Source: an uncultured Clostridia bacterium
Lineage (GTDB): Bacteria > Bacillota > Clostridia > TANB77 > CAG-508
NCBI GenBank assembly: GCA_947589445.1
Contig: CANQAB010000005.1
Coordinates: forward strand, 1 to 35,907
Direction of reading: 5' to 3'
DNA length: 35,907 nucleotides
The notes beneath the pieces are model-generated. The model saw only the letters and a program-made list of their open reading frames with translations. It was not told where the DNA came from and searched no databases. The position numbers and the translations under genes are program-made. Shown piece after piece: positions 16,590 through 22,922 of the stretch; position 1 is the first letter of the stretch, and the number at the start of each line of letters is the position of its first letter.

Positions 16590-16946
16590 TTAACAATAAA
16601 TTAACTCTTTAAGTACAATTTCTTCAGCTCTATTTTTAATATTATTCATACATCTAACCCACTCTAATTGATTTTTTTGTTTCAAGTTTTCACCAACTTT
16701 TTCTGCCTTAGCAAGTTCATTAATTATCTTTTTTGCTCTCTCATTTGCAGTTTTATCTATCTCAATTAGGTACTCTGGTAATGTACCATTTAATATTAAA
16801 TCGCTATATAAACCTAACTGATGTTTCTTCATATACTCTAATTTTAAACGCCCATATAATCCAATATGGTAATCTGATTCAGTTCCTTTTACTGCTAAAT
16901 CAGGAATTAAATAATCTCCTTCTTTGCGATAAGTTATTTTTTTCAT
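16590..16946 (-). CDS. TnpV-like transposon-encoded protein
   Basis: This 118-residue protein matches the TnpV family found in Tn4451-type and related Clostridial mobile elements. Visible marks are ITYRKEGDYLIPDL near residue 4, GLYGRLKLEYMKKHQLGLYS near 30, LPEYLIEIDKTANER near 57, and the ending EWVRCMNNIKNRAEEIVLKE. The molecular role of TnpV is not established. The start is the ATG at 16946, eight bases after GGAGG; the ATG at 16961 overlaps that site. No recombinase (TnpX or integrase) is in the window, so this is probably a leftover of a mobile element at the right edge of the island. Confidence 0.85.
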   Translation of the reverse strand: MKKITYRKEGDYLIPDLAVKGTESDYHIGLYGRLKLEYMKKHQLGLYSDLILNGTLPEYLIEIDKTANERAKKIINELAKAEKVGENLKQKNQLEWVRCMNNIKNRAEEIVLKELIYC

Positions 16947-17149
16947 AATCAAAACCTCCAAAATAAATTTTTAGGTTTCCCATATATTAAAATTTTATTA
17001 CGAACATGTGTGTAAATTTTTTGGGGAAATAATGGGGAAAAAATTTTCAAAAAAGTACAAAAAATTACACAAATGTTTGCTATGTCAAAACCCCCGAAGG
17101 TGTTAAAATACAAGCTAAAACCCTTGATTTCACTAAAGTACAAGAAACA

Positions 17150-18405: not shown

Positions 18406-18651
18406 ATGAAAATAACAAAATATAATAATTATAGAAATATATCTGGAAATAAGTTAAAAGAGTTAAGAAAAAAATCTAAAATGTCACAACAAGATTTAGC
18501 AAAAAAACTACAATTGGAGGGAATTGATTTAACATCAAAAGAAATTTCAAAAATAGAAACAAATAAAAGATTAGTACAAGACTTTGAATTGTTTGCTTTT
18601 GCAAAAATTTTTAAAGTAACATCAGATGAATTTAATACTGAAAATAAATAA
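18406..18651 (+). CDS. Small XRE-family HTH transcriptional regulator
   Basis: This 81-residue protein is almost entirely one helix-turn-helix domain (residues 12-70): LKELRKKSKMSQQDLAKKLQ, then LTSKEISKIETNKR. It resembles short XRE regulators of mobile elements. The ATG at 18406 follows GGAG with a seven-base gap. It is divergent from the two-gene membrane operon, so it may regulate that operon from the shared 147-bp region. It is the last accessory gene before the rpoB promoter. Confidence 0.8.
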   Translation: MKITKYNNYRNISGNKLKELRKKSKMSQQDLAKKLQLEGIDLTSKEISKIETNKRLVQDFELFAFAKIFKVTSDEFNTENK

Positions 18652-18756
18652 AAAATTTTACAAAAATACTGTATAATTTACAAAATTATTTAATTGATAC
18701 ATTTAGAAAACTTCTTACGGACACTAAAACTTTAAACAAAAAATTGCTAAAAAGTA

Positions 18757-18785
18757 TTGACAAGCTATAAAAAAAATATTATAAT
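18757..18785 (+). promoter_or_regulatory. Consensus promoter of rpoB
   Basis: TTGACA at 18757-18762 and TATAAT at 18780-18785 are separated by exactly 17 bp. Both hexamers match the sigma-A consensus perfectly, as expected for a strong housekeeping promoter. It lies about 400 bases upstream of the rpoB start. Confidence 0.88.
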
Positions 18786-18807
18786 AATTCTATTGTAAAA
18801 GAGAAGG

Positions 18808-19193
18808 GTGATTAAAATTAAAAAACTTAAAGTAGCGCAAAAAGTTTTTTAAATATAACATAAGAAAAGGTAAGTTGATAAAATAGAGAGTTTATCAGCC
18901 TACTTTTTTGTTGCCATTTTCATATTTTATTATGCAAGAAAAATCGTCAGATTTTTCTTTATCAACAAGGTTAACTTACATTGATACCTTGAAATGTGTA
19001 ATTGCTAAGCAATTTATACATTTGTCAAAGACAGTTATCTTATAAAAGAGGAATTAATTATAAAGAAAGTGTAAATAGTCTTACGGAAATATTAGCAGGG
19101 ACCAAAAGACTATTTAAATACCTTATAATTAAGAAGGACTTTTATAAAATTAAAATTTATTACCTGCTAATTTTGAAAACAGGGGTGATTAGT
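18808..19193 (+). promoter_or_regulatory. Long structured 5' leader of rpoB
   Basis: The 385 bases before rpoB contain five hairpins. The first is AAAAAACTT/AAGTTTTTT (18820-18850). A terminator-like stem at 18865-18908 has arms GTAAGTTGATAAA and TTTATCAGCCTAC followed by TTTTTT. AAGAAAAATC-GTCA-GATTTTTCTT comes next, near 18936-18959, then AAATGT/AATTGC paired with GCAATT/ACATTT (18992-19023). The last is AAATAGTCTT (19073-19082) with AAGACTATTT (19106-19115). A 14-codon frame starting GTG at 18808 overlaps the first stem. This looks like attenuation control; the factor involved cannot be told from sequence. Confidence 0.55.
18865..18908 (+). terminator. Terminator-like hairpin within the rpoB leader
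   Basis: GTAAGTTGATAAA (18870-18882) pairs with TTTATCAGCCTAC (18891-18903) with one mismatch and one G-T pair. Flanking AAAAG and TTTTT lengthen the stem to about 18 bp, and the T-run completes an intrinsic terminator ahead of rpoB. Confidence 0.65.
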
Positions 19194-22100
19194 TTGGTAA
19201 AAGATATCAAACATGAAAAATGTGTACGTAAAACATTTGCAAAAACAGAAGATGCTATACAAATGCCAAATCTTATTAAAGTTCAAAAAGATTCATATGA
19301 TTGGTTTGTAAAAGAAGGACTAGGAGAAGTTTTAAAAGACATATCTCCAATTATAGACTATTCAGGAAACCTAATACTAGAATTTTTTGACTACTATATG
19401 GAAGACACAACAAAATACTCAATAGAAGAAGCAAAAGAAAGAGATGCAACATATGCAACAAGACTACACGTAAAAGTAAGATTAATAAATAAAGAAACAG
19501 GAGAAATAAAAGAGCAAGAAATCTATTTAGGTGATTTTCCATTAATGACAGACACAGGAACATTTATTATAAATGGTGCTGAAAGAGTTGTTGTAAGCCA
19601 ATTAGTACGTTCACCAGGATGTTACTATGCCTTTACATACGATAAAACAGGAAAAAAATTATTCACATCAACGGTTATGCCAATACGTGGAGCATGGCTA
19701 GAATATGAAACAGATGCAAATGATGTATTTTATGCAAGAGTAGATAGAACAAGAAAAATACCAGTTACAGTTCTATTAAGAGCAATTGGACTAGTTACAG
19801 ATGAACAAATTGCAGAGTTATTTGGAGAAGAAGAAAAACTAAAAGCAACATTTGCAAAAGACACAATAAAAACACAAGACGAAGCATTAATTGAAATATA
19901 TAAAAAATTAAGACCAGGAGAATTACCAACAGCAGATGCAGCAAGAAATCTATTTAATGGATTACTATTTGACCCAAGAAGATATGACCTAGCAAAAGTA
20001 GGTAGATATAAATATAATCAAAAATTATGTCTAGCAACAAGAATAACAAATCAAATTGCATTTTCAGACATAATACATCCAGAAACAGGAGAAGTATTAG
20101 TAGAAAAAGATAACACAATTACCCAAGAAATTGCAGAAGAAATACAAAATTCTGGAATAAATATAGTAGATGTAAAAGTAAATGACAGAAAAGTTAGAAT
20201 AATTGGTAATGGAACAGTAGATATTCACAAAGTTTTAGATATAGATTTTAAAGACGTTGTTATTAAAGAAAAAGTAAACTATGAAATATTAAAAAATATA
20301 ATAGACAACACAGAAGAAAAAGACTTACTAAAAGAAATTCAAGAAAGAATGGAAGAATTAATTCCAAAACATATTACAAACGAAGATATTATAGCATCTA
20401 TAAACTACTTATTAAACCTAAGCCATGGTATAGGAAACGTAGATGATATAGATCACTTAGGAAATAGACGTGTTAGATGTGTTGGTGAATTATTACAAAA
20501 TCAATTTAGAATTGGTTTAACAAGATTAGAAAGAGTAGTACGTGAAAGAATGACAATTCAAGATTTAGATGTTGTTACACCACAAACCCTAATTAATACA
20601 AAACCAATAACATCATCTATTAGAGAATTCTTTGGAAGCTCTCAATTATCACAATTTATGGATCAAACCAATCCATTATCTGAACTAACACATAAAAGAA
20701 GAATATCAGCATTAGGACCAGGAGGATTAACAAGAGAAAGAGCTGGATTTGAAGTAAGAGACGTTCACTTTACACATTATGGTAGACTATGTCCAATAGA
20801 ATCACCAGAAGGACCAAACATTGGATTAATATCAGCAATATCATCATTTGCAATAATAAATGAATATGGATTTATAGAAACACCATATAGAAAAGTAGAT
20901 AAAGAAACACATAAAGTAACAGACATTGTAGAATATATGCCTGCTAATGTTGAAGAAAAATACGTTATAGCAAAAGCCTCTGAGCCAGTTGATAAAGAAG
21001 GAAGATTTATTAATAAAAAAATAAAAGTAAGAATCGCAGACGAAATTGCAGAAGTTCCACCAGAAGAAGTTGACTACATAGATGTATCACCACAACAATT
21101 AGTTTCAGTTGGTGCTGCAATGATACCATTCTTAGAGCACGATGACGCTCACCGTGCATTAATGGGTGCAAACATGCAACGTCAAGCAGTTCCACTATTA
21201 AAAACAGACTCACCAATTGTAGGAACAGGTATGGAATATAGAGCAGCAAAAGATTCTGGAATAATGGTACTAGCAGATGAAGATGGAACAATAGAAAAAG
21301 TAACAGCAGATGAAATTATTCTAAAAACAAAACACGGATTAAAAACATATAAACTACGTAAATTTAAAAGAACAAATGGTGGCACATGTATTAATCAAAG
21401 ACCAATTGTTGTAAAAGGAGAAAAAGTAAAAGCAGGAGACGTAATAGCAGATGGACCTTCTACAGACAAAGGAGAAATGGCATTAGGAAAAAATGTATTA
21501 ATAGCATTTGCTACATGGGAAGGATACAACTACGAAGACGCAGTTTTAATTAGTGAAAGACTAGTAAAAGATGATGTATACACATCAATACATATAGAAG
21601 AATACGATTGCGAATGTAGAGATACAAAATTAGGACCAGAAGAAATAACAAGAGATATACCAAACGTTGGTGAAGACAGCCTAAAAGACCTAGATGAAAA
21701 CGGAATTATTAGAATAGGAGCAGAAGTAAGACCAGGAGACATTCTAGTTGGAAAAGTAACACCAAAAGGAGAAACAGAACTAACAGCTGAAGAAAGATTA
21801 CTACGTGCAATTTTTGGAGAAAAAGCAAGAGAAGTTAGAGATACATCACTAAGAGTACCTCATGGAGAAGCTGGAACAATAGTAGATATAAAAATATTTA
21901 CAAGAGACAATTCAGAAGAATTAGGACCTGGAGTAAATCAAGTTATTAGATGCTATATTGCACAAAAAAGAAAAATATCTGTTGGTGATAAAATGTCTGG
22001 ACGTCATGGAAACAAAGGTGTTGTATCAAGAATACTTCCAGAAGAAGATATGCCATTCTTACCAGATGGTACACCAGTAGATGTAGTACTAAACCCATTA

Positions 22101-22922
22101 GGTGTTCCTTCTCGTATGAATTTAGGCCAAGTTTTAGAAGTTCACTTAGGTGCAGCAGCACGTGAACTTGGATGGAAAGTTGCTACCCCAGTATTTGATG
22201 GAGCAACAGAAGAAGAAATATCTGAACTACTAGAAAAAGTAGGACGTACACCAGATGGAAAAACAGATCTTTATGATGGTAGAACAGGAGAAAAATTTGA
22301 TAAACCAGTTACAGTTGGTGTAATGTACATGTTAAAACTTCACCACTTAGTAGATGACAAAATACATGCTCGTTCAACTGGACCATATTCATTAGTAACA
22401 CAACAACCACTAGGAGGAAAAGCACAATTTGGTGGACAACGTTTTGGTGAAATGGAAGTTTGGGCTTTAGAGGCATATGGAGCAGCACATACTCTACAAG
22501 AAATATTAACAGTAAAATCAGATGACGTAGTAGGAAGAGTAAAAACATATGAAGCAATAGTAAAAGGAGAAAATGTACCAGAACCAGGCGTACCAGAAAG
22601 CTTTAAAGTATTAATTAAAGAATTACAAAGTTTAGGTTTAGATATAAAACTATATTCTGAAGACAATAAAGAATTAGAATTAAAAGAAAACATCGAAGAT
22701 GGAATAGACTTTAATTTAGAAAAAGACAAAATATCTTTAGAAGAAGAAAATGTAATTGAAAACGATGAATTAGAAAACGAATATATAGAGGAAGATTTAG
22801 AAGATACAGATGAATTATTCGATGCTAACGATTTACTAGACGATGAAGAAGAACTATATGATTCAGATTTAGCAGCAGATAATTTAGCCGATGAAGAAGA
22901 CTTAGCAGAAGAAGATAAATAA
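19194..22922 (+). CDS. rpoB: DNA-directed RNA polymerase beta subunit
   Basis: RpoB forms one jaw of the RNA polymerase catalytic centre. The full domain order is present. The rifampicin pocket near residues 482-525 reads [20 protein letters not shown], then ISALGPGG, with the usual sensitive residues (D, H and S). Further on are [13 protein letters not shown], and [13 protein letters not shown] near 935. [20 protein letters not shown] lies close to the C-terminus. A strongly acidic tail of about 75 residues (rich in Glu and Asp) follows, as in several Clostridia. The frame is open upstream, but TTG 19194 is the start: it follows AGGGGTGATT, and the homologous sequence (VKDIKHEKC) begins there. 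This gives 1242 residues, which is normal length. Confidence 0.97.

Follow-up and report, generated by a model that had tools for sequence, protein, structure and literature searches.

The window analysed here, a stretch of 35,907 nucleotides, comes from an uncultured Clostridia bacterium whose genome is a 1.26-Mb assembly of 96 contigs. It carries rpoB at positions 19194-22922 of the forward strand (all features below lie on this strand unless stated), with a TTG start codon and a Shine-Dalgarno sequence (SD), AGGGGTGAT, read from the sequence at 19181-19189; rpoC comes next after rpoB. The promoter at 18757-18785, TTGACA-17-TATAAT, matches the consensus at 12 of 12 positions, in line with the original prediction of a perfect promoter and of a leader of about 400 nt, which extends from here to the rpoB start at 19194. 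A small HTH_3 regulator (18406-18651) is encoded directly 5' of the promoter, and further upstream a TnpV transposon protein (PF14198, E 2.5e-39; 16590-16961, reverse strand) marks the remnant of a mobile element. It had also been predicted that rpoB does not stand directly behind ribosomal protein genes, and this holds: rplJ (L10) lies on a different contig of the same genome, C74, and no rplL-like sequence turned up ahead of rpoB in the 25 loci of the window's family (f1) with enough upstream sequence or in 26 loci from other families of the order. Elsewhere in the class, such sequence precedes rpoB in at least 12 of 27 loci, a lower bound given the short query.

The N-terminus of RpoB was located in 130 of the 145 genomes of the family, which comprises uncultured Clostridia of the gut, and 110 upstream regions were used, the remaining 20 genomes, mostly with lower-ranked matches, being left out; counts over these loci are counts of sequences that are not phylogenetically independent. 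The 420 nt leading up to the core element described below contain a promoter with at least 11 of 12 consensus matches in 96 of 104 family loci, whereas the 420 nt before these do so in 5 of 100. The rpoB SD itself takes, in 89 loci, the same form as the extended SD of the leader open reading frame (ORF) described below, and TTG follows it at an offset of 3 (43 loci) or 4 (33 loci), together 76 of the 89. Two loci (G058:C1:63354-63777 and G112:C1:156840-157263) show the RpoB N-terminus as two overlapping pieces, as if frameshifted near codon 60. A TTACGG-type motif lies close to the promoter of rpoB or within the loop of the pseudoknot (window positions 18715 and 19081); it occurs in the leader/promoter region of 48 of the 110 loci vs 8 in the 480 nt before, and the whole window contains TTACGG twice and CCGTAA once.

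Five stems had been predicted in the leader. Three of them, at 18865-18908, 18936-18959 (z -5.53) and 19041-19146 (z -3.92), stand out clearly from shuffled sequences; the stem at 18990-19020 is weaker (z -2.06), and the one at 18964-18990 does not exceed chance (z -0.58), being matched by 54 of 200 shuffles. The hairpin at 18865-18908, with a U-tract to 18909, had been named as an intrinsic terminator. The same stem was returned by an automatic finder, although it was not among the matches of a simple consensus scan for terminators, and RNAfold gave -15.6 kcal/mol for 18862-18912 (z -5.09, none of 200 shuffles equally good). Conserved pairing was checked across related rpoB leaders: in an alignment of 22 family sequences, 96.2% of the cells of the terminator stem were paired, 7 of 12 pairs showed changes on both sides, and the covariation was reached in none of 500 shuffles. 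A conserved, covarying intrinsic terminator thus stands ahead of the gene, and the proposal of a separate rpoB leader is supported.

The predicted antiterminator fared differently. It had been suggested that the terminator arm GTTGATAAA (18874-18882) can also pair with TTTATCAAC (18958-18966). The linker between terminator and core is 141 nt long in the window vs 29, 41 and 28 nt in the congeners L006-L008, and the 3' half of the proposed pairing falls within an insert (18921-19035, limits approximate and set by eye) that is missing from these three congeners. The alternative pairing is therefore specific to one species and is not conserved, and we rejected it as an antiterminator. When the linker was resampled 5000 times from a Markov model, 158 of the resamples contained a 9-bp match of this kind. 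Over the family, 13 of 45 loci offer the terminator arm at least 7 bp of pairing within the linker vs 6.4 expected, a weak excess; pairing of the terminator arm with the ORF region was inspected by eye. Neither the linker partners of the 45 loci nor this inspection revealed a conserved antiterminator in the family leaders.

Exploring the leader sequence, we found two notable features that the original prediction had overlooked, an AUU-initiated leader ORF and a pseudoknot. The ORF lies at 18817-18852, comprises 11 codons and a TAA stop (IKKLKVAQKVF if read literally), and is preceded by an extended SD, AAGGGTGATT, at 18804-18813. A regular expression recognised the strong extended SD block in the same form in 51 of the 110 loci (53 SD rows). 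The codon 3 nt after the SD is ATA in 27 rows, ATT in 23 and another in 3, that is ATA or ATT in 50 of 53, and any ATG, GTG or TTG within 10 nt of the SD was found in only 1 of 47 clean loci. These 47 loci share the order of extended SD, AUU/AUA ORF of 6-14 codons, stop and terminator. The ORF has a median length of 10 codons over the 53 rows. The frame set by this codon stays open for 7-16 codons in 42 of the 53 rows vs 5 and 10 for the other two frames, the +1 frame being partly closed by ATA-AA itself. Measured with the automatic finder, the distance from stop codon to terminator stem is 4-17 nt in 32 of the 47 clean loci; 5 loci have 1 nt or less and 10 have 26 nt or more, outlying distances that probably reflect errors in hairpin finding.

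The leader ORF is not uniform. The frame runs through the terminator in L048 and L057 (21 and 33 codons); read by eye, the start is ATG in L033, L068, L074 and L271, ATC in L034 and L035, and ATA or GTA in the lineage of L099 and L109-L112, while in L038, L039 and L063 an SD of another form precedes ATA. Several genera keep the core while the leader ORF block is absent from the regular-expression matches. Many rpoB loci of other families of the order show by eye a leader ORF and terminator before rpoB, with ATA starts in f4 and in one f3 locus and TTG or GTG starts at the same place in the sister families f5 and f2. The ATG exceptions together with these TTG and GTG starts indicate that a codon of the AUU/AUA class is not essential to the design. 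Among other class members, a search of 28 rpoB loci (L368-L395) for the AUU/AUA leader ORF by regular expression returned no match. The listed leader translations, inspected by eye, contain no regulatory run of codons for a single amino acid and share no clear motif beyond I-K. IF3 discriminates against AUU, AUA and AUC start codons, and infC, which encodes IF3, has an ATA, ATC or ATT start codon in all 30 loci read from the order (L297-L326; judged from frame and SD).

The second feature is formed by the long hairpin at 19041-19146, hereafter the core. It consists of P1 (19041-19048 with 19139-19146), a purine internal loop (19049-19053 / 19133-19138), P2 (19054-19063 with 19123-19132) and P3 (19073-19082 with 19106-19115). 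The anchors GAGGAATT and AAGRRGGAC, spaced by 68-80 nt, are present in 110 of 110 loci, with no mismatch in 87, one in 19, two in 3 and four in 1, and the internal loop, AGGAA / GRRGGA, hardly varies. The fourth pair of P1 varies (AU 55, GC 48, CG 3, GU 2, UA 2) and is paired in all 110 loci vs 76 expected. In an alignment of 61 sequences, 91.9% of the cells of the core were paired, 11 of 13 pairs had changed on both sides, and the covariation score was 0.467 vs 0.190 for shuffles, reached in 0 of 500. In the terminal loop, AUUAGCAGG (19091-19099) pairs with CCUGCUAAU at 19163-19171, 3' of P1 and about 10 nt before the rpoB SD, GCAG of the loop pairing with CTGC. A pseudoknot helix of at least 6 consecutive pairs was found in 103 of 110 loci vs a mean of 14.2 and a maximum of 24 over 50 shuffles; because the best helix containing a central GC is chosen at each locus, long helices are favoured, a bias that the shuffle control shares. 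In 13 loci the loop carries GAAGC in place of GCAG, and the partner is correspondingly GCTTC. Sequestration of the rpoB SD by the 3' strand of the pseudoknot was rejected over the 110 loci, the own duplex giving -2.92 and swapped duplexes -2.95 kcal/mol; in the window's genus such a pairing is possible (CCTG/CAGG, -6.1 kcal/mol in the window).

To follow the distribution of the core, we used a covariance model (R1) that includes the window sequence itself and scores it at 64.9 bits, the single strong match in its genome (the next reaches 20.1 bits). R1 exceeded 45 bits in 79 of 143 genomes of the order, once in each and always in f1, and reached an E value of 0.001 or better in 12 of 391 genomes of the class, 11 from f1 and G538; these searches of more than 40 genomes used the stricter filters of Infernal, under which weak relatives may be missed. 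The G538 match (40.5 bits) lies inside a coding gene and is false. Other families of the order gave no confirmed R1 match: a hit in family f4 (G165, 38.3 bits; locus L270, G165:C176) stems from a contig of 3.3 kb whose rpoB is 81% identical to that of the window, compared with 62-72% for other relatives in the order, and therefore probably represents a contaminant. A DNA match on C50 of the window's own genome (86% over 35 bases) falls within a coding ORF and is due to chance. In a pattern scan of GTDB genomes, 102 of 117 loci among the matches listed lay directly upstream of rpoB. Two of the 15 not confirmed at rpoB, L167 and L197, look like the core element with rpoB beyond the locus edge, and the remaining 13, which resemble coding sequence or come from other phyla, were taken as chance. 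A model of the leader ORF (R2) placed 23 of the 29 matches listed at rpoB and 2 antisense over the same leader; the remaining 4, at 34-38 bits, were by eye coding sequence or ordinary terminators. Both the leader ORF block and the core are thus rpoB elements present in one copy per genome.

The leader had not been recognised as a known class, and the database agrees: Rfam 15, L10_leader included, gave no match at gathering score in the window and, at E values up to 5, noise only for 18700-19300, and 20 further loci yielded two tRNAs and nothing else. Parallels exist nonetheless. As in leader-peptide attenuators (trp/his, ilv and the erm, bmrCD and msrD type), a short ORF with its own SD ends a short way ahead of an intrinsic terminator, and the controlled gene follows. 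The rpoB leader differs from them in its AUU/AUA start, its target and the second structured element behind, and in that neither a regulatory codon run nor a conserved antiterminator was found. A strong extended SD with an AUU/AUA start recalls infC autoregulation and the Staphylococcus aureus cvfC1 and ccpN starts, where, in the portion of PMC13009471 available, the codon starts the regulated protein itself, unlike here, where a leader ORF of an attenuator begins with it. For S. aureus, that portion gives an AUA start for infC, an AUU start for cvfC1 and non-canonical starts for cvfC1 and ccpN, and reports that in poor medium non-canonical starts behind extended SDs yield ~10% of the expression of an AUG reporter. 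Closest in setting is the Bacillus subtilis rplJL leader (L10_leader), which, in the part of PMC4538822 available, likewise places a leader, an intrinsic terminator and a leader peptide before genes that neighbour rpoB in many bacteria. There the SD of the ORF lies inside the 3' part of the terminator, whereas the ORF at rpoB precedes the terminator; in addition, the rpoB leader has no Rfam match and controls rpoB, with rplJ elsewhere in the genome. We did not find an rpoB leader of this kind described in titles or abstract openings of the literature searched (rpoB leaders, leader peptides, non-canonical starts; mostly without subscription journals or preprints). The main texts of two surveys (PMC2965389 and PMC11109978), in the parts available, do not mention rpoB, and PMC13236596, in the part available, concerns ilvB1. 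The combination of a putative weak-start leader gene, a terminator and a pseudoknot RNA before rpoB thus appears undescribed in this literature.

We read the rpoB control region as a two-stage device, a leader-peptide attenuator followed by a pseudoknotted element beside the rpoB SD, and consider this interpretation about as likely as not. As judged from sequence, the anatomy of the leader fits ribosome-mediated attenuation in which occlusion would replace an antiterminator. Transcription would begin at the strong promoter, and the extended SD would bring a ribosome to the short ORF, whose AUU/AUA start belongs to the class rejected under IF3. When initiation succeeds, the ribosome would read about 10 codons and stand at the stop, mostly 4-17 nt before the terminator stem. 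A ribosome footprint reaches about 10 nt beyond the stop codon; it would prevent the terminator stem from forming at its base, and polymerase would continue into rpoB, while in the absence of initiation the terminator would form. Since no conserved antiterminator was found, antitermination would depend on ribosome occlusion alone. Polymerase synthesis would then follow the capacity for translation initiation, such as the balance between IF3 and 30S subunits, and IF3 is a plausible signal because the weak start codon that has been kept belongs to the class against which IF3 discriminates. In the second stage, the pseudoknot element may be bound by a factor that feeds back on translation or stability, in the simplest case RNA polymerase; feedback by the product of the operon itself is favoured because the element occurs only at rpoB.

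The strongest form of this proposal, a dedicated sensor of translation initiation in which AUU/AUA readthrough would read the IF3-to-30S balance, joined to a new pseudoknot class for autogenous control of RNA polymerase, is considerably more tentative. If true, the amount of polymerase would be coupled directly to translation-initiation capacity, which bears on the old open question of how cells balance RNA polymerase against ribosomes. With rpoBC separated from the ribosomal rplJL genes, the conserved leader would tie transcription to a codon that IF3 rejects, and the link between translation initiation and polymerase synthesis becomes testable with a reporter. The pseudoknot, for its part, is a structured RNA without an Rfam match that stands at rpoB across the whole family.

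The attenuator could instead be one of general translation coupling, in which the ribosome on the leader ORF blocks Rho or an intrinsic terminator and the weak start sets a low constant level, IF3 being no signal. Rho is encoded in this genome, which makes protection from Rho a live rival, and the B. subtilis rplJL leader peptide, according to the available part of PMC4538822, raises expression presumably by blocking Rho; the TTG and GTG starts in sister families also agree with this explanation. The conserved, covarying intrinsic terminator directly behind the ORF and the near absence of canonical starts around a codon that stays ATT or ATA in f1 argue against it, and we regard it as possible but somewhat doubtful. 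That the block of SD and AUU/AUA is not translated at all, being an RNA-binding or 30S-binding site with the short frame as a by-product of A+T-rich sequence, would explain why the peptides share so little and carry no run of a single regulatory amino acid. We consider this improbable given the excess of open frames over the other two phases, the closely similar frames of 11, 11, 11 and 10 codons in the congeners L005-L008, and exceptions that turn into ATG, TTG or GTG starts.

For the pseudoknot element, the compact fold and the conserved purine-rich internal loop beside an SD would also suit a riboswitch aptamer that recognises a small molecule, in place of a site bound by protein. Riboswitches are often present at several genes of one genome; the core has one strong copy in its own genome, at rpoB, and occurs once in each of the 79 genomes, all f1, which renders a riboswitch unlikely, though less so than an untranslated leader block. 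Binding by a protein, with RNA polymerase as the simplest candidate, is the reading we prefer for the second stage.

Two further arrangements were seen in other families of the order. In f4 (L273-L277), the region of up to 320 nt ahead of rpoB contains another conserved element, GACATTCGCGTAGCATCTTGAATGT..GTGGTGGCTAG, for which a TAGC/GCTA loop pairing is possible. In f5 (L283 and L286-L296), ATGTAAACTA was seen by eye in two places, ahead of the leader ORF and in the loop or 3' arm of the terminator, and its upstream copy could pair with the 5' arm of the terminator as an antiterminator.
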